Origin: Streptomyces sp. NBC_00490
Lineage (GTDB): Bacteria; Actinomycetota; Actinomycetes; Streptomycetales; Streptomycetaceae
DNA: 64,000 bases
Assembly (NCBI RefSeq): GCF_036013645.1
Contig: NZ_CP107869.1
Span: forward strand, 7,440,001 to 7,504,000
Direction of reading: 5' to 3'
A model generated the notes under the pieces. That model had not been told where the DNA came from and did no database searches. It saw nothing but the letters and a program-made list of their open reading frames with translations. Below are positions 20,877 to 29,274 of this stretch, in pieces (the first letter of the stretch is position 1; the number at the start of each line of letters is the position of its first letter). The translations under genes and the position numbers were made by a program.

Positions 20877-21028
20877 GCAGGGCAGGTCCGGCTCCGTGAC
20901 GTGCGCGAACGGCGCGGCTTCGGGGCGTCGAGGACCAGCCTGCGGACGCCTCGACGGGTTCGGGCGTGTTTCGCATACGATCGGGACGAGGCTCCGACAT
21001 ATGTGCAGGATGCGCACTTGCGCAGAAC

Positions 21029-21047
21029 TTAGGTAAGCCTTACCGTT
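21029..21047. promoter_or_regulatory. Iron box (DmdR/IdeR-type operator)
   Basis: TTAGGTAAGCCTTACCGTT matches the actinobacterial DtxR/IdeR/DmdR consensus TWAGGTTAGSCTWACCTWA at 16 of 19 positions by my count, and has a perfect GGTAAG-C-CTTACC core at 32-44 of this line. It lies 114 bases upstream of the TTG start at 21162, inside a 325-bp intergenic region that otherwise holds the ycnI terminator and a doubled TGCGCA motif (21011-21024). It predicts repression by iron-loaded DmdR and induction in iron starvation. Confidence 0.7.
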
Positions 21048-21161
21048 CACAATCGCACCACTCAGGGCCCTGGCCGGAACACCGGCCCCGCCCGCGGCGA
21101 GCGCTTCACCGACGCAGCCTGGCCGTCCGATGCCGGAACTCGCTGCTCCCAGGACGCCCCC

Positions 21162-24100
21162 TTGAATCACAGCACCTTCGGTCTGTACGACCCTGCCCTC
21201 GACCACAGCGACTGCGGCGTCGGCTTCATCACCCGGCTCGACGGGACACCGAGCCACGACGTCATCCGCAAGGGCGACGAAGCGCTCCGCGCCATCCCGC
21301 ACCGCGGCGGCAAGTCCGCCGAGGGTGTCGGGGACGGCGCGGGCGTGAACGTGGACCTGTCGGCGGAGTTCTTCGGCGCGATCACCGGCGAGGAACTGCG
21401 TGCCGGGCACTTCGGCGTCGCCAACTGCTTCGTGCCGGCCGACGGCGAACGCCGGGCCGCCGCGATCGACCTCGTGGGCCGGAGCATCGCCGAGCAGGGC
21501 TTCGACGTCCTCCTCGTCCGCGACGTACCCGTCGACCACGCCGTCGCCTGCCCCGCCGCCGAGCAGTACCAACTGCCCATCGTGCAGTGGGTGTTCCGGG
21601 CGCCCGTGAGCTGGGAGCGCGCAGACACCGACTCGGCCGCCAACCGTGCCCTGCTCGCCGTGGAGGCCGTGGCCTACGCCGACGAGGCGACGTACGCGGG
21701 GCTGTACGTGCTGTCGCTCAGCGCCCGCACCCAGGTGCTCAAGGGACGGCTCAACTCCGCGGAGGTCATCGGGTACTTCCGCGACCTCGTCGACCCCCGG
21801 CACTCCGTGCGCTCGCTCTACTTCCACACCCGGTTCTCCACCAACACCGAGCCGCACCCGACCATGGCCCAGCCGTTCCGGCTCATGGCGCACAACGGCG
21901 AGCTCAACACCGACCGCAAGAACCGCCTCAGCGACGAGGCCCTCGCACGGGCCCGGACCCGGAGCATCGTGCGCCCGCCGGGGCAGTCCGACTCCAGCCG
22001 GCTCGACCAGACCCTCCAGAGCCGCGTGTTCGACGACGGCCTGGACCTCGTCGAGGCGGTCGTGTCCCTCATGCCGCCCGCCTGGGAGAACGACCGCACA
22101 CTGCCCGCGGCCACCCGGGACATGCTGGAGTTCTTCTCCCTGTACGAGGAGAAGAACGACGGCCCCGCCGCCCTCATCTTCAGCGACGGCGACGTCGTCG
22201 GCGCCCGCCTGGACCGGCTCGGCCTGCGCCCGCTGCGCACCGTGGAGACCGCCGAGTACCTGATGGTCGCCTCGGAGGCCGGCCAGGTCGCCTTCCCCGA
22301 CGACGAGGTCGTGCACCGGGGCCGTATCGAGGCCGGCGGCATGCTCGTCGTCGACCACCGCACCGGACGCCGGCTGCGCACCCGCGAGGTGCTGGACGCC
22401 CTCGCCGCGCGCCGCCCGTACAGCGAACTGCTCACCTCCGCCCGGGTGAACCTCGACGACCTGCCCGCCCCCGACTACTACCGCGGCACCACGACACTCG
22501 GCTACGACGGCGACCTCACCCTCGCCGGGCGGTACGTGGCGTACTCGCTGAACCAGGAGAGCTTCCGGTTCATGCTCGACCCGATGCTCGCCGACGGGTC
22601 GGAGCGGATCTCGGCGATGGGCTACGGCAACGCCATCAACGCGCTCAGCGACACCGAGGGCGGCATGGCGAAGTACTTCTCGCAGCGCTTCGCCCAGGTG
22701 ACCAACCCGCCGCTGGACAGCATCCGCGAGGCCGACGGCATGAGCATGCGGGTCGCGCTCGGCCCCAAGCCCGACGGGACCCCGCACAGCGCCGGCCGCC
22801 AGCTCGTCGTCTCCTCGCCCGTGCTCGGGCACCTCGACATGGTCCGGCTGCGGGACCAGCGGATCGTGCCGCTGAAGCGGTTCGCCATGCTTTACGAGCC
22901 GGTGGCCGGGGACGAGACCGCCAACGCCGACGCCCTGCGCACCGCGCTCGGGCAACTCTGCGACGACGTCGAGCGGTTCGCGTCCGAGCAGGGCGGCATC
23001 GCGCTCCTCACCGACCGCGCGGTCTCCTCGACGCGGGCGCCGCTGCCGGTCATCCTCGCCGTCGCCGCCGTCAACCAGCGGCTCATCGAGACCGGGCTGC
23101 GGCTGCGCGTCTCGCTCGTCGCGGAGAGCGGCCAGCTGGCCTCCTCGCACCACGTGGCGACCGCGCTCGGCTTCGGCGCCTCCGCCGTCTACAGCCTCAG
23201 CGCACGGCTGCGCGCCGAGGAGAAGTTCCCGAGCGCACCGGCCCCCGCCGGCGAGATCACCGCGACCGACCGGGCGCTGGCGAAGTTCCGCAAGGCCGCC
23301 GAGAAGTCCCTCGCCAAGACCATGGGCCGGGTCGGCCTGTGCACCGCCGAGAGCTACATCGGCGGCGAGTTCTTCGAACCCAACTACCTCGACACCCGCG
23401 ACGACGTCTTCGCCCGGACCTTCCCGCACATGGACGCCCCGGTCGGCGGTGTCGGGTTCGCCCGGATCGCGCAGGCCGCCACGGACTGGCACGAGCGGGC
23501 CCGTACGGTCCAGGGCGAGCAGCAGATCCCGCTGCTCGGGCTGTTCAAGGAGCGCTCGGACGGCGCCGGGCACTCCTTCGGTGTCACGGCCGTGCGCGGC
23601 TTCGGCGACATGGTCGAGGAGAAGCCGGAGTTCGGGAAGCCCGAGGACTCCGACGCGCTCCGGCTGCTCACGCTCGGCCAGCTCGACGACGCGTTCGGCA
23701 TCACCGACGCCGCGTACCGCAACACCGGGTACGACGCGCTCAGCGACGCCGAGATCGACGCGTTCCGGATCACCCCCGGGTACCGCGCCTTCCTGCGGAC
23801 CACGCACGAGGAGCGCTCCCGCCGCCCGGCCGCGCTGCGGGACGTGCTCGCGCTGCCCGCGGACGTCACCGGACTGCGTACGGCCGAGGACTTCGCCCGG
23901 GAGCTGGGCCGGTTCTCGACGGACGGGAACGCGAGCGTCACGGTCCGGGGTGTCGCCGTCTCCCGAACGGAACAGGGCACCTTCCGACTGCGTCTCGCCG
24001 CACCGGACCTGGACCGTCACACCGCCCTCGCCGAAGCGCTCGCGCGCCTGGGCGAGGCCGAGATCCTCGCGGTGGGCGCCGACGGCATCGACGTGGCCCC

Positions 24101-26669
24101 CGCCGGTACCGAAGCCCGCCTCCTGGCCCTCCTCGACAGCGACAGCGCCCCCGCCGGCGTTCCGCTCGACGAGGTCCAGCCCGCGCACGAGATCACCCGG
24201 TCCCTCGCCTCCGGCGCCATGAGCCACGGCGCGCTCGTGGCGACCGCGCACGAAGCCGTCGCGCACGGCACGAACATGGTCGGCGGCATGTCGAACAGCG
24301 GTGAGGGCGGCGAGCACCACACCCGGTACGGCACCATCCGCGGCTCCCGGATCAAGCAGTTCGCGTCCGGCCGGTTCGGCATCTGGGCGGGCTATCTCGC
24401 CGACCCGATGCTCGAAGAGCTGGAGATCAAGATCGGGCAGGGCGCGAAGCCCGGCGAGGGCGGCCAGCTGCCCGCGCCGAAGGTCACCGTCGACATCGCG
24501 GCGGCGCGCGGCGGCACCCCCGGCATCGAGCTGATCTCCCCGCCCCCGCACCACGACACGTACTCCATCGAGGACCTCGCGCAGCTCATCCACGACTGCA
24601 AGGCGGCCCGGGTCCGGGTCGTCGTCAAGCTGGTGTCCTCGGAGGGCATCGGCACCATCGCGGTCGGTGTCGCCAAGGCCGGCGCGGATGTCATCAACGT
24701 CGCCGGGAACACCGGCGGCACGGGTGCCGCGGCCGTCACCAGCCTCAAGTACGCGGGCCGTTCGGCGGAGATCGGCGTCGCCGAGGTGCACCAGGCGCTC
24801 GTCGCGAACGGGCTCCGGCAGAAGGTCGTGCTGCGCTGCTCCGGCGCGCACCAGACCGGCGGCGACGTCGTCACCTCGGCCCTCCTCGGCGCCGACAGCT
24901 TCGAGTTCGGTACGACCGCGCTGATGATGCTCGGCTGTGTCATGGCGAAGAACTGCAACGTGAAGTGTCCCGCCGGACTCACCACGAACCCCGAGGTCTT
25001 CGAGGGCGACCCGCGCGCACTCGCCCAGTACCTGCTCAACATCGCCCACGACGTACGGCAGATCCTCGCCCGCCTCGGACTGCGGTCCCTGCGCGAGGCC
25101 CGGGGCCGCACGGACCTGCTCCAGCTGCTGGACCACCCCGCGAGCGTGGGCCGCCTGGACGTGCGCCGTCTGCTCGCGCGCGTGCCCGAGAAGGTCGTGG
25201 CGGACCCGGAGTACCTGGAGAAGAACTTCACCACCGACGACGCCCTCGTCGAGCGGGTGCGGACGGCGCTCCTCGACCGGCGCGAGCCGTCCCTGCTCGT
25301 CGAGGGCATCCGCCTCGGCAACAGCGACAAGTCGGTGGGCGGACAGCTGAGCATCGACATCGAGCGGCTGCTCAACCACGAGAGCGCCGCCGACGGACCC
25401 GCCGTCACCACCGACGACCGCGGCCGCCGCCGCCTCGTCGACGACGCGGTCCGCATCCGCACCACGGGGTCCGCCGGTCAGTCGTACGGCGTGTTCTGCA
25501 ACGACGGCATCACCCTCGAACACACCGGCACCGCCAACGACGGCGTCGGCAAGAGCCAGAGCGGCGGCCGGATCATCGTCCGGGCTCCCGGCGGTGGCAG
25601 CGCCGAACGCGGCGGCAACGTGCTCATCGGCAACTTCGCGCTGTTCGGCGCGACCGGCGGGCGGACGTTCGTGCAGGGCGAGGCCGGTGACCGGTTCGCC
25701 GTGCGCAACTCCGGCGCGACCGCGGTCGTCGAGGGCGTCGGCGACTTCGGCTGCGAGTACATGACCGGCGGCACCGTGCTCAACCTCGGCGGTTTCGGCA
25801 AGGGCCTCGGCAACGGGATGAGCGGGGGGTTCCTGTACCAGTACGACCCCTCGGGCGAGCTGGCCGGACGGGTGAGCGCCGACTCGCTGCTGGTGTTCCC
25901 GGTGACGGACACCGCGCGCGGTGCCTTCCACGAGGAGGCCGTACGACTGCTGCTGACCTGGCATGTCGAGGCCACCGGCTCCGAACTGGCGGCCCGGCTC
26001 CTGCACGACTGGGACACCGAGCGGCAGCACGTGTACTGCGGGATGCCCCGCGCGCTGCTGCTCTACCAGGACTCCACGGAGATCCTCGCCGCGGCGACCC
26101 GGTCCCAGCTCCTCGACGAGCTGGCGACCTCCATCGCCACCGACAAGCTCCGCGCGTTCAAGGTCGACTACCGCGACCGCCGCACCGTCCTCGACGGCCG
26201 GGCCCCGGCCTTCGGCGACCAGGGCAGCGACGACATGTTCTCGCTGCTGTCCTCGTACACGGTGCTCGGCGTCGCGCAGGACCTCGCGCTCCAGCGGGTG
26301 CCGGGCGCGAGCGGACCGGAGGACCCGCGCATCGCCGAAGCCGTGCGCAACCTCGTGCTCACCGAGGACTTCTTCGTCAAGCAGCGCGTGGTGAAGTACC
26401 TGCGCGGCACGCTCGACCGCTTCGACGGCGCCGAACTCGCCACCCTCATCGCGATCAAGCGCCTCGACGACTACAAGCGCGCGCTCAAGCAGCGCAACAA
26501 CCTCAGCGTGGACGCCCCCGGCACCTACGGCTGGATCATCCACCAGACCACCAAGAACGCCGGTCGCGTCCGCGCCGCCCGGTTCGACGAACTGCTCGCG
26601 AACGCCGCGCTGGAGGACATCGCCTCCCGCCGCGCCCCGCAGGCCCCGACCGAGGCGGTGACCGCATGA
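21162..26669 (+). CDS. Glutamate synthase (GOGAT)-like large protein
   Basis: 1835 residues from TTG 21162 (AGGA seven bases upstream); typical GltB is about 1500. Class II glutaminase domain: a 17-residue propeptide precedes Cys18 in HSDCGVGF, then RFSTNTEPHPTMAQPFRLMA. A central domain is followed by the FMN/synthase domain (SNSGEGGEHHTRYG, QGAKPGEGGQLPAPKV, SPPPHHDTYSIEDLAQLI, GNTGGTGAAAVTSLKYAG). The cluster cysteines Cys1259, Cys1265 and Cys1269 show C-x5-C-x3-C, one residue shorter than the usual C-x5-C-x4-C for [3Fe-4S]. The GXGXG repeat domain is at about 1440-1565, then a roughly 270-residue C-terminal part I cannot assign. No gltD follows; a diflavin reductase overlaps its stop instead. 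Confidence 0.9.
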   Translation: MNHSTFGLYDPALDHSDCGVGFITRLDGTPSHDVIRKGDEALRAIPHRGGKSAEGVGDGAGVNVDLSAEFFGAITGEELRAGHFGVANCFVPADGERRAAAIDLVGRSIAEQGFDVLLVRDVPVDHAVACPAAEQYQLPIVQWVFRAPVSWERADTDSAANRALLAVEAVAYADEATYAGLYVLSLSARTQVLKGRLNSAEVIGYFRDLVDPRHSVRSLYFHTRFSTNTEPHPTMAQPFRLMAHNGELNTDRKNRLSDEALARARTRSIVRPPGQSDSSRLDQTLQSRVFDDGLDLVEAVVSLMPPAWENDRTLPAATRDMLEFFSLYEEKNDGPAALIFSDGDVVGARLDRLGLRPLRTVETAEYLMVASEAGQVAFPDDEVVHRGRIEAGGMLVVDHRTGRRLRTREVLDALAARRPYSELLTSARVNLDDLPAPDYYRGTTTLGYDGDLTLAGRYVAYSLNQESFRFMLDPMLADGSERISAMGYGNAINALSDTEGGMAKYFSQRFAQVTNPPLDSIREADGMSMRVALGPKPDGTPHSAGRQLVVSSPVLGHLDMVRLRDQRIVPLKRFAMLYEPVAGDETANADALRTALGQLCDDVERFASEQGGIALLTDRAVSSTRAPLPVILAVAAVNQRLIETGLRLRVSLVAESGQLASSHHVATALGFGASAVYSLSARLRAEEKFPSAPAPAGEITATDRALAKFRKAAEKSLAKTMGRVGLCTAESYIGGEFFEPNYLDTRDDVFARTFPHMDAPVGGVGFARIAQAATDWHERARTVQGEQQIPLLGLFKERSDGAGHSFGVTAVRGFGDMVEEKPEFGKPEDSDALRLLTLGQLDDAFGITDAAYRNTGYDALSDAEIDAFRITPGYRAFLRTTHEERSRRPAALRDVLALPADVTGLRTAEDFARELGRFSTDGNASVTVRGVAVSRTEQGTFRLRLAAPDLDRHTALAEALARLGEAEILAVGADGIDVAPAGTEARLLALLDSDSAPAGVPLDEVQPAHEITRSLASGAMSHGALVATAHEAVAHGTNMVGGMSNSGEGGEHHTRYGTIRGSRIKQFASGRFGIWAGYLADPMLEELEIKIGQGAKPGEGGQLPAPKVTVDIAAARGGTPGIELISPPPHHDTYSIEDLAQLIHDCKAARVRVVVKLVSSEGIGTIAVGVAKAGADVINVAGNTGGTGAAAVTSLKYAGRSAEIGVAEVHQALVANGLRQKVVLRCSGAHQTGGDVVTSALLGADSFEFGTTALMMLGCVMAKNCNVKCPAGLTTNPEVFEGDPRALAQYLLNIAHDVRQILARLGLRSLREARGRTDLLQLLDHPASVGRLDVRRLLARVPEKVVADPEYLEKNFTTDDALVERVRTALLDRREPSLLVEGIRLGNSDKSVGGQLSIDIERLLNHESAADGPAVTTDDRGRRRLVDDAVRIRTTGSAGQSYGVFCNDGITLEHTGTANDGVGKSQSGGRIIVRAPGGGSAERGGNVLIGNFALFGATGGRTFVQGEAGDRFAVRNSGATAVVEGVGDFGCEYMTGGTVLNLGGFGKGLGNGMSGGFLYQYDPSGELAGRVSADSLLVFPVTDTARGAFHEEAVRLLLTWHVEATGSELAARLLHDWDTERQHVYCGMPRALLLYQDSTEILAAATRSQLLDELATSIATDKLRAFKVDYRDRRTVLDGRAPAFGDQGSDDMFSLLSSYTVLGVAQDLALQRVPGASGPEDPRIAEAVRNLVLTEDFFVKQRVVKYLRGTLDRFDGAELATLIAIKRLDDYKRALKQRNNLSVDAPGTYGWIIHQTTKNAGRVRAARFDELLANAALEDIASRRAPQAPTEAVTA

Positions 26670-28378
26670 CCGTCATGCCCCCGACCGGATCCCTCATCCC
26701 GGCCGACGCGCCCTTCTCCGCCCAGCAGGAGTCCTGGCTGGCCGGGTTCATCGCCGGCATCGCGGCCGCCGGACGCCGGGACAGCGCCGGCGCCGACGCG
26801 CCCGCGGCCACCGTCGACGTGCTGATCGGCACCCAGACCGGCAACGCCGAACTCGTGGCCGACGACGTCGTCGCCGGTGCCCGCGCCCGCGGACTCGGCG
26901 GCCGGGCCACCGCCCTCGACGACGTCACCCCCGAGGCGCTCGCCGCGATGTCCCACGTCATCGTCGTCACCTCGACGTACGGCGAGGGCGAGATGCCCGA
27001 CAACGCCGGGCTGTTCTGGGAGGCGCTCCAGTCCGACACGGCCCCGCGCCTCGAAGGCGTGCGCTACTCGGTCCTCGGGCTCGGCGACCGCGGCTACGAC
27101 GACTTCTGCCAGGCCGCCAAGCTCATCGACACGCGTCTGGAGCAGCTCGGGGCGACCCGGCTGCACGAACGCGTGGACTGCGACGTGGACTTCGAGGAGC
27201 CCGCGGGGCAGTGGACGGCCGCGGTCCTGGACCTGGTCGCCGCCGAGACCGGCGCGAAGGGCACGGGCGCCGCGGAGGCACCGAAGAAGCCCCGCTCCCA
27301 GTGGAACAAGCGCACCCCCTACCCGTCCCGGCTCGCCACCAACAGGCTCCTGTCCGCCCCGCACAGCGCGAAGGAGATCCGCCACTACGAGTTCGACCTC
27401 GGCGACAGCGGCATCACCTACGAGGCGGGCGACGCGCTGGCCGTCGTACCGGTGAACGACGCCGCACTGGTCGAAGCGCTGCTGGAGCACCTGGGCGCGA
27501 GCGGCGACCGGGAGAGCGCCGAACTGCTGCGCACCGAACGCGAGATCCGCACCCCCTCCAAGGAGTTGATCGCCGACCTCGTCGAGCGGGCGCCCGCGAG
27601 CGAGCTGGCCTCGGTCGTCGCCCACGGCGACCGGTCCGACCTCGACTCCTGGCTCTGGGGCCGGGACGTGCTCGACCTGCTCCGGGATGCCGGTCCGGCC
27701 GCCCCCGGCCTCGCCGAACTGCTGCCGTTCCTGCGGCCGTTGCAGGCACGCCAGTACTCGATCTCGTCGAGCCCGCTCGCCCACCCGGGCAGCGTCCACC
27801 TCACGGTGGCGTCGGTGCGGTACGGCAGGTACGAGGGCGTCACGTCGACGTACCTGGCGGACCGGGTCGGTGAGTCCCCGGTGGGCATCTACCTCCAGCC
27901 GAACGCCTCCTTCAGCGTCCCGGCGGACGACGACGCCCCGATGGTCATGATCGGCCCCGGCACCGGCATCGCCCCCTTCCGCGGCTTCCTGCACGAGCGG
28001 GCCGCGCGCGGCGCCTCCGGACGGAACTGGCTGTTCTTCGGGGACCAGCACCGCGAGACCGACTTCGTCTACGAGGACGAGCTGACCGAGCTGCGAACGC
28101 GCGGCGTGCTCACCGAACTCGACCTCGCCTTCTCGCGCGACCAGGCCGAGAAGGTCTACGTACAGACGCGGATGCGGGAGCGGTCGCGGGAGCTGTACGC
28201 GTGGCTGGAGGAGGGCGCGCACCTCTACGTCTGCGGCGACGCCTCCCGCATGGCGAAGGACGTGGAGACGGCCCTGCTGGGCGTCATCGCCGAGCAGCGC
28301 GGACGCGGGGACGACGACGCCGCGGAGTACCTCGCGGATCTGCGCCGGGCCAAGCGCTACGTCCGGGACGTGTACTGA
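26666..28378 (+). CDS. CysJ-like diflavin reductase, partner of the GOGAT-like protein
   Basis: 570 residues, ATG 26666 overlapping the upstream stop (ATGA). A short N-terminal segment (ADAPFSAQQESWLAGFIAGI) is followed by a flavodoxin domain (LIGTQTGNAEL, TSTYGEGEMPDNAGLFWEAL), then an FAD-binding ferredoxin-reductase-like domain ([10 protein letters not shown] near residue 362; GVTSTYLADR) and an NADPH-binding domain ([33 protein letters not shown]-terminal YVRDVY). Such enzymes pass electrons from NADPH through FAD and FMN to an iron-containing partner. Its closest visible relative is the C-terminal half of the nitrate reductase at 41539-45582. Electron delivery to the GOGAT-like protein is inferred from coupling. 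Confidence 0.92.
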   Translation: MTVMPPTGSLIPADAPFSAQQESWLAGFIAGIAAAGRRDSAGADAPAATVDVLIGTQTGNAELVADDVVAGARARGLGGRATALDDVTPEALAAMSHVIVVTSTYGEGEMPDNAGLFWEALQSDTAPRLEGVRYSVLGLGDRGYDDFCQAAKLIDTRLEQLGATRLHERVDCDVDFEEPAGQWTAAVLDLVAAETGAKGTGAAEAPKKPRSQWNKRTPYPSRLATNRLLSAPHSAKEIRHYEFDLGDSGITYEAGDALAVVPVNDAALVEALLEHLGASGDRESAELLRTEREIRTPSKELIADLVERAPASELASVVAHGDRSDLDSWLWGRDVLDLLRDAGPAAPGLAELLPFLRPLQARQYSISSSPLAHPGSVHLTVASVRYGRYEGVTSTYLADRVGESPVGIYLQPNASFSVPADDDAPMVMIGPGTGIAPFRGFLHERAARGASGRNWLFFGDQHRETDFVYEDELTELRTRGVLTELDLAFSRDQAEKVYVQTRMRERSRELYAWLEEGAHLYVCGDASRMAKDVETALLGVIAEQRGRGDDDAAEYLADLRRAKRYVRDVY

Positions 28379-28380
28379 GC

Positions 28381-29274
28381 ATGACGGACCAGCACGGGTG
28401 CGCGTTCGAGGGCTGCCGCCCCCGGCGGAACACCGGCGCGCGGCTGATCGACCCGCGCATGCCGGAACTGGCGCGCTGCCTGACCCTCTTCCAGTACGTC
28501 CAGGCCGTCACCGGGGGACCGGTCGCGCGCATCGACCAGGCCGGCAGCTACGCCGTCCCGAGCCTGCGCGGCGACGCGTTCGCCGTGCACCCGGGCGAGA
28601 TCGCGCTGCGTCTGGACGCGGACGGGGTGGACACGGCCGTCGTCGCGCGGGACGAGGGCTCGGTCGCCGTGCGCCTGCTCGACGCGCAGGGCCGGATCGT
28701 GCACGAGGGGCGGCTGCTCTCCGACGGGGACCGGCTGCTGGCCGGGCTCGCCCCCACGGTCCACGCCGGGTCGACGGCCGCGGCACCTTCCCCGGTCCGC
28801 GACGTACCGGCGTGGGAGAACGGCGACCAGCTCGCCCAGCTCGACGCGATCCTCGCGGACGGCGGGCTCGCCCGGCGTGCCGCGTTCGACCGCTACCGGG
28901 GCGAGCACCGGGACATCGACGTCGATGTCGTGCCCGCGGTCCTCGACCACGTCTGCTCCGTCGGACTGCCGATCGGCGTCGCGGTGTTCGCCCCCTCGGC
29001 CATGCAGGCATGCGCCGGCCGGGTCCACGTCACCGACCGGACCACCGGCGGGCGGGTGTTCGCGGCGATCGCGCGGAGCTCGGTGGAGATCGACCTCGCG
29101 GGCGTCCGGGCCTGCCGGCTGGTCCGCTCCACGGCGGCCCAAGGCCCGACCTCGGCGCTCGAACTCGACGACGCCGACGGCCGCTGCGCCGCGGTCGTCA
29201 CCCAGTTCGGGATCGTGGGCGAGCAGGTGCACACGGCGTGGGAGCACCTCGCGGCGTCGCTGCCCGGCGCATAG
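28381..29274 (+). CDS. HemS/ChuX-like putative haem-utilisation protein
   Basis: 297 residues from ATG 28381, two bases after the diflavin reductase stop. The sequence looks like two similar halves, as in haem-trafficking/degrading HemS: the first has GDAFAVHPGEIALRLDADGV and VRLLDAQGRIVHEG; the second has VGLPIGVAVFAPSAMQACAG, RSSVEIDLAGVRACRLVRST, LELDDADGRC and ends W-x2-L-x3-LP. These match the HemS layout (hydrophobic patch, LxLxxxxVxxxWxVR, SLExFDxxG). Haem ligands are not identifiable by eye. Assignment rests on pattern resemblance and the iron box; an unrelated small-molecule-binding fold is possible. Confidence 0.55.
   Translation: MTDQHGCAFEGCRPRRNTGARLIDPRMPELARCLTLFQYVQAVTGGPVARIDQAGSYAVPSLRGDAFAVHPGEIALRLDADGVDTAVVARDEGSVAVRLLDAQGRIVHEGRLLSDGDRLLAGLAPTVHAGSTAAAPSPVRDVPAWENGDQLAQLDAILADGGLARRAAFDRYRGEHRDIDVDVVPAVLDHVCSVGLPIGVAVFAPSAMQACAGRVHVTDRTTGGRVFAAIARSSVEIDLAGVRACRLVRSTAAQGPTSALELDDADGRCAAVVTQFGIVGEQVHTAWEHLAASLPGA

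Follow-up and report, generated by a model that had tools for sequence, protein, structure and literature searches.

A putative accessory glutamate synthase paired with a diflavin reductase behind an iron box in Streptomyces sp. NBC_00490

Glutamate synthase (GOGAT) is one of the main routes by which nitrogen enters biomass and is among the more iron-costly enzymes of central metabolism. In the GltBD enzyme, GltD takes electrons from reduced nicotinamide adenine dinucleotide phosphate (NADPH) and relays them, by way of flavin adenine dinucleotide (FAD) and two [4Fe-4S] clusters, to the [3Fe-4S] cluster and flavin mononucleotide (FMN) of GltB. In the ferredoxin-dependent enzyme, a large subunit works without GltD and is fed by a separate electron carrier. 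Here we describe an operon located in a 64,000-nucleotide stretch of the genome of Streptomyces sp. NBC_00490 (contig NZ_CP107869.1, positions 7,440,001 to 7,504,000; hereafter the window), which encodes a glutamate synthase-like large subunit (GOGAT2), a diflavin reductase and a HemS-like protein. Comparative analysis makes it probable that the operon specifies an accessory NADPH-glutamate synthase for iron starvation, in which the diflavin reductase replaces the iron-sulfur (Fe-S) protein GltD. An earlier note on this DNA had proposed, as one of two possibilities, that under iron scarcity the diflavin protein takes over from an Fe-S-rich electron donor. That proposal is supported by the strict pairing of the two genes, the conservation of the iron box, the iron-related genes found at other boxes and the completeness of the synthase core. 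No description of the gene set was found in the titles and abstract openings of the open-licence literature, a body of work from which subscription journals and preprints are largely absent, and an earlier account is therefore possible.

All elements of the operon lie on the forward strand of the window. The GOGAT2 gene (21162-26669; 1835 residues, TTG start), delineated from its open reading frame and a domain scan, is joined by an ATGA overlap to the diflavin reductase gene (26666-28378; 570 residues, CysJ-like, with FMN and FAD/NADPH modules), recognized by domain scan and full-length similarity. A gap of 2 base pairs (bp) then precedes the gene of the HemS-family protein (28381-29274; ATG at 28381, 297 residues with an N-terminal cysteine cluster), assigned by Pfam and profile searches. 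The tight coupling of the three genes described in the earlier note is thereby confirmed. A predicted DmdR/IdeR-type iron box, TTAGGTAAGCCTTACCGTT (21029-21047), found by pattern search, is situated 115-133 bases 5' of the GOGAT2 start and covers the -10 element and the end of the spacer of a probable promoter (21018-21046; TTGCGC at 21018-21023, a 17-nucleotide spacer and TACCGT at 21041-21046). Box and the GOGAT2, diflavin and HemS-like genes form one unit, and a locus of S. canus (L008), to which the organism is close, encodes proteins 97-99% identical to those of the window's operon.

The oversized GOGAT-like protein of the earlier note is indeed longer than the 1561-residue open frame of the organism's own canonical GltB, and its GATase_2, Glu_syn_central, Glu_synthase and GXGXG domains (Pfam) are all complete. 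Its solved relatives are the glutamate synthases of Azospirillum (1ea0/2vdc/6s6s), Bacillus (7mfm) and Synechocystis (1llw/1ofd). With the large subunit of GltBD it shares the four domains, the N-terminal cysteine, the core motifs (GAKPGEGGQLP, SPPPHHD and NTGGTGA are intact) and three cluster cysteines. Cys18, which we take to correspond to the mature catalytic Cys1, is present in 78 of 83 aligned rows, and the motif CGVGF in 220 of 229 long family proteins, the other nine being eight late-starting models and one CGVGL. The cluster cysteines 1259, 1265 and 1269 are kept in all 83 aligned rows, themselves a selection from the family; an Fe-S-free GOGAT was ruled out on this ground. Unlike GltBD, GOGAT2 carries a C-x5-C-x3-C cluster loop, seen in 240 of the 240 family proteins listed (239 by pattern, one by eye), where the canonical spacing, found in the organism's own GltB and in L098-L100, is C-x5-C-x4-C. 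The near-invariant Cys1226 (79/83 rows) is a possible fourth cluster ligand. GOGAT2 further differs from GltBD by an insert between the central and FMN domains (about residues 806-987; 23577-24122), with some 180 unaligned residues against some 35 in Azospirillum GltB, and by a C-terminal extension (about residues 1631-1835; 26052-26666) that served as our family marker. The insert had no Pfam match (23583-24128 scanned), and the extension, of about 200 residues, matched nothing in Pfam nor, up to an expectation value (E) of 10, in PDB. The NCBIfam equivalog NF008730 is narrowly missed (1043.2 bits for a cut-off of 1047). As judged from these sequence features, GOGAT2 is a separate family. As regards other traces of such genes, the GOGAT2 frame is broken in L079, and Glu_synthase-domain fragments, broken and in two frames, lie elsewhere in the chromosome at G000:C1:10234649-10235166 (L036), where tblastn of the fetched stretch gave no match to GOGAT2 at E 1e-3.

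The second protein combines Flavodoxin_1, FAD_binding_1 and NAD_binding_1 domains in one chain (Pfam), in agreement with its earlier designation as a diflavin reductase. It resembles CysJ, the flavoprotein of sulfite reductase (6efv, 9c91), in domain order and over its full length, and passes the model NF004859, 'sulfite reductase subunit alpha' (442.2 bits for a cut-off of 432). Unlike CysJ, it falls below the cut-off of the equivalog TIGR01931 (554.5 vs 668.15 bits) and is tied to GOGAT2. None of 29 genomes encodes an NADPH-type CysI above cut-off, although each of the 29 contains one or two remote matches that fall short of it, and a role as an ordinary CysJ, or sulfite reductase subunit, was therefore considered unlikely. 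We examined 40 other loci, drawn from Actinomycetes and Alphaproteobacteria, and in 38 of them the diflavin gene lies directly 3' of GOGAT2. Both exceptions, L093 and L095, are decayed copies in which an N-terminal remnant of GOGAT2 runs into HemS-like sequence, the GOGAT2 body and the diflavin gene being gone. GOGAT2 thus differs from GltBD in having a diflavin reductase rather than GltD as its partner gene, and an iron box upstream. With the ferredoxin-dependent synthase it shares a large subunit without GltD, but its gene partner is an NADPH-diflavin protein and its cluster loop is different. Extra matches to the flavodoxin half (residues 50-169) were seen 3' of the diflavin gene in L074 and L075, and a second FAD/NADPH half (205-570) 3' of the HemS-like gene in G129. 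Spearman coefficients of 0.77-0.88 among the distances of the three proteins (L074, L093 and L095 omitted, L079 entered as its 3' piece) were not counted as evidence, as shared ancestry alone would produce such likeness.

The match of the upstream site to an iron box is beyond chance. The earlier note had called it near-consensus, which holds for the degenerate pattern TTAGGTWAGSCTWACCTAA, with which TTAGGTAAGCCTTACCGTT agrees at 16 of 19 positions, and fails for a non-degenerate 19-mer, a search for which found no match in the window with up to three mismatches. Allowing as many mismatches, TTAGGTWAGSCTWACCTAA identified 18 sites in the 10.8-Mb genome and the reversed pattern none. Among 1000 stretches of 300 bp drawn at random from the window, best scores were 8-12, apart from eight stretches at 16; these we take to be the box itself because the pattern search of the window lists a single site. 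Upstream regions of canonical gltB in this genome and three others scored 10-12/19. Fifteen of the box loci (L043-L057) were inspected for their neighbours and 13 proteins scanned (L049 being the same place as L045, and L056 omitted). Eight of the 13 plainly belong to iron or haem metabolism: a haem oxygenase, two SIP, two Peripla_BP_2, two FecCD and one Chorismate_bind protein. A pyridoxal decarboxylase and a formyltransferase, presumably desA and cchA, are compatible with siderophore synthesis, and a DUF2470 protein, an aspartate decarboxylase and an Antibiotic_NAT protein are of less clear role. The last of these, behind the box of L051 (G000:C1:3063973), is surprising for this regulon. In each of the 12 Streptomyces-type loci, the window copy counted, the box gave the highest score of the upstream region, matching at 12-17 of 19 positions; it is also kept in further actinomycete genera. 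In all 11 aligned leaders of Streptomyces type, the window's included, CTTGC is followed by the box, whose columns have a mean identity of 0.90 vs 0.56 overall; the box ranks 43rd among 345 leader windows, other stretches of the leader being even better conserved.

Together, these features suggest the following scheme. When iron is plentiful, DmdR/IdeR-Fe2+ would occupy the box and keep the operon off; as iron falls, GOGAT2 and the diflavin reductase would be made. GOGAT2 is predicted to hydrolyse glutamine at its N-terminal cysteine and to channel the ammonia to the FMN site, where 2-oxoglutarate would be reductively aminated, presumably to glutamate. NADPH may supply the electrons, which would reach GOGAT2 by way of the two flavins (FAD and FMN) of the diflavin protein instead of GltD with its two [4Fe-4S] clusters, and would enter at the remodelled three-cysteine site, where a cluster is probably still present. 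Given the cofactor numbers of GltBD, iron per unit would drop from about 11 atoms to about 3-4, the replacement of GltD removing eight of the eleven. The HemS-like protein would be an optional accessory of the iron-controlled versions. An iron-derepressed, lean isozyme of this kind would be the counterpart to the lowering of the canonical enzyme. Published reports describe such lowering in low iron for gltAB by FsrA in Bacillus (PMC8464778) and for gltBD in Caulobacter (PMC3751524), and place gltB2 among the predicted targets of IsrR, with reportedly no significant effect on gltB2 mRNA stability (PMC9410917). Such iron-sparing responses likewise target glutamate synthase for iron economy, and the lowering of the canonical enzyme in Bacillus and Caulobacter is the reason why an iron-sparing substitute would make sense; unlike them, the present system would raise a leaner replacement rather than lower an iron-rich enzyme.

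Several observations weigh against this interpretation. The iron saving can only be partial, since the three cluster cysteines are retained. In the FMN domain, the stretch TDG..KTGRD is replaced by CSGAHQTGGD, and another substrate is therefore possible. Two of the seven Streptomyces copies detected are decayed, from which it follows that the operon is dispensable, and in S. caniscabiei (L011) the box is down to 12/19 positions. The pairing was counted in 40 loci, GOGAT2 of marine Rhodobacterales having been seen as proteins alone, without their neighbour genes. Nine loci that lack the HemS-like gene, eight of them from genus g138 and the other being L075, are also devoid of the box. They (L080-L085, L087, L088 and L075) have in common another dyad upstream of GOGAT2, CRGAC-AANGNY-GTCTG, and the GOGAT2-diflavin pair is thus not always under iron control. 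Finally, TGA-N9-TCA, which we assume to be the form of RirA sites, occurs at a TTGACT element in two of three rhizobial loci, in one case 313 bases 5' of the start; it counts for little, because the actinomycete locus L033 shows it before GOGAT2 too.

The box-less loci bear on a broader version of the proposal, according to which the pair serves Fe-S sparing at large (low iron, low sulfur or oxidative stress), with iron control and the HemS-like gene as one of several wirings. This would extend the iron-starvation reading and is compatible with it. Among actinomycete loci with readable upstream regions, a box matching at least 14/19 positions was found in 21 of the 22 that carry the HemS-like gene and in one of the 11 without it (L074, L093, L095 and four alphaproteobacterial loci left out). 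The Fisher value for this association is 1.3e-6, which overstates independence as the loci are related. Box and HemS-like gene occur together in Streptomyces, in genera g140 (Tsukamurella-like), g141, g120 and g78 and in two g134 loci. The earlier note had proposed a search for the three-gene order with its box in other actinobacteria; the pair recurs, the third gene proved optional, and nine loci without the third gene also do without the box. The dyad of those nine loci favours a broader wiring, and its exact form was confined to the GOGAT2 locus in four of the four genomes searched; on the other hand, its near matches elsewhere stayed at control level. We regard the broader version as a tentative possibility. 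The core of the dyad resembles what we take to be the McbR site of C. glutamicum; an McbR-type regulon may be considered for the box-less loci, although the near matches are at control level.

That the same chemistry is directed at another acceptor is less probable still. GOGAT2 would then be a glutamine-dependent, diflavin-driven reductive amidotransferase for a different keto acid, perhaps in siderophore or iron-linked metabolism. The altered CSGAHQTGGD stretch and the shortened cluster loop would fit such a change, as would an insert and a C-terminal extension without recognized relatives. The host, moreover, already has a canonical GOGAT: GltB and GltD are also encoded in 30 of the 31 GOGAT2 genomes (three of them, G416, G469 and G599, with decayed GOGAT2 copies), which makes GOGAT2 an extra isozyme. 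In the remaining genome, the Streptomyces assembly G371, neither canonical GltB nor GltD was found; nothing is built on this exception because the assembly is 78% complete. Against another acceptor, of the 222 synthase-domain columns with a conservation of 97% or more in GOGAT2, 133 are identical in the organism's own GltB, core motifs included, and no obvious biosynthetic cluster appeared in the annotated neighbourhoods viewed. This count and the GOGAT2 tree discussed below omit L075, L074, L093 and L095, and L079 entered them as its 3' piece only. We favour glutamate synthesis with a diflavin reductase in place of GltD.

The third protein narrowly passes the Pfam HemS cut-off (24.9 vs 24 bits). 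Its sequence alone found no PDB match up to E = 1, while a profile of 20 relatives retrieved Yersinia HemS at 3.8e-13 over both halves, such that the relationship asserted in the earlier note is real. It resembles HemS/ChuS (2j0p, 2j0r) over both halves and in Arg77, which aligns with HemS Arg102 and, like His108, is kept in 24 of 24 members. It departs from them at the position of HemS His196, presumably the haem ligand, which is Ala152 in the window protein, Ala or Thr in 20 of 24 members and His in a single one, with His one residue further in two more. It also differs from HemS/ChuS by the N-terminal cysteine cluster, which is recurrent; four cysteines lie within the first 45 residues of 68 of 120 listed proteins, three in 29 and two or fewer in 23 (fragments included), and the cluster is therefore not universal. 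Cys245 is present in 23 of 24 members and Cys269 in all 24. A role with a metal or a cluster would be our guess. The HemS-like gene follows the pair in 23 of 40 loci, Ketogulonicigenium among them, and was not detected (profile, E 1e-4) in 15 of the 40, all 15 of which retain the pair. In a quick GOGAT2 tree, loci with and without it are intermingled, a pattern suggestive of an old third gene that was lost several times. That the operon mobilizes haem or iron reductively, with the diflavin protein reducing haem or iron on the HemS-like protein in the way that cytochrome P450 reductase serves haem oxygenase, and with the amidotransferase as an ancillary component, elaborates the second possibility of the earlier note and now looks improbable: the iron box, the HemS relationship, the co-occurrence of box and HemS-like gene, the invariant Arg77 and the P450 reductases among the relatives of the diflavin protein, some solved as fusions to haem oxygenase, speak for it, whereas the pair persists without a detectable HemS-like gene in the 15 loci just mentioned, the His196 equivalent is lost in most members, and a separate haem oxygenase elsewhere in the genome has its own iron box. 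A partial second HemS-like sequence of about 117-124 residues is present near the chromosome end (G000:C1:10175382-10175732; L021, L035) and in S. canus (L013), with no GOGAT2 match in the 10-kb stretch around it in L035, and weak HemS-like matches occur in G069, G244, G256 and G272.

The distribution of GOGAT2, which extends to other soil bacteria and to marine ones and is given here as genome counts that each include the own genome, is patchy. The C-terminal marker was found in three of 296 genomes of the class; a second draw, which overlapped the first, gave five of 393, and the family of G139 gave 24 of 151 (eight of 31 genera). A query with the N-terminus was positive in seven of 246 Streptomyces, the two decayed copies among them. 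Plasmid copies exist in Tsukamurella, Sinorhizobium, Shinella, Neorhizobium and Ketogulonicigenium (nine records), and a Curtobacterium GOGAT2 is 83% identical to that of the window. Patchy presence and plasmid copies point to transfer between lineages. Downstream of the Ketogulonicigenium locus are an AraC-type regulator, a siderophore receptor and iron-siderophore uptake genes, a setting that speaks for the iron-starvation reading. The Ketogulonicigenium C-terminus retrieved 235 proteins, and many of the 120 listed are named after Rhodobacterales, Shimia, Yoonia, Phaeobacter and Celeribacter among them, which are marine.

Whether these findings amount to an undescribed class, an NADPH-diflavin GOGAT that spans Actinomycetes and Alphaproteobacteria (GOGAT2 itself extending to marine Rhodobacterales) and assimilates nitrogen with few or no Fe-S clusters, appears to us evenly balanced. 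Such a class would have lineage-specific regulators and a leader hairpin of its own. Its iron-controlled form would include a HemS-family protein that has lost the haem ligand, gained a cysteine cluster and been turned to another task, perhaps the handling of metals or clusters. If true, the class would show how cells can sustain nitrogen assimilation when iron is limiting, in soil and possibly also in the sea, CysJ-like diflavin reductases would acquire a new physiological partner, and several hundred database proteins now named only 'glutamate synthase-related protein' would gain a meaning. The proposed partnership with the diflavin reductase lends itself to a direct and simple enzyme test.

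Between the promoter and the GOGAT2 start lies a conserved leader hairpin (21092-21129), with the loop motif CGCTTCACCGACGCA at 21102-21116 and the general loop form YCAYCGWCGCA. Leaders of Streptomyces, g78 and g138 contain it whether the box is present or absent (L008, L009, L011, L012, L033, L034, L080-L083 and L085-L095; more weakly L010), and g134 contains a variant (L078 and L079, also weaker). The pattern search found none in leaders of the Tsukamurella type, g120, g141, g31 or the alphaproteobacteria. Alignment of 11 sequences indicates that the hairpin covaries across several genera: 74% of cells pair, five of seven pairs are changed on both sides, and covariation is 0.286 vs 0.113 in shuffles (one of 500 reached the observed value) and no more than 0.182 when the structure is slid; the number of pair types is unexceptional (87/500 shuffles). 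A model built from these sequences recognized the leader of L010 (E 0.0056) and, with weak scores, the leaders of L078 and L079 (0.059 for both) and L068 (0.78), and also gave similar-scoring matches elsewhere, for instance in L038 (0.014). A search of Rfam with the leader region of the window found nothing up to E = 5. Two operons of genus g78 (L033 and L034) are preceded, within about 250 bases and on the strand opposite to GOGAT2, by a ribosomal L31 leader (Rfam RF03158), and another copy of RF03158 is present in L089.

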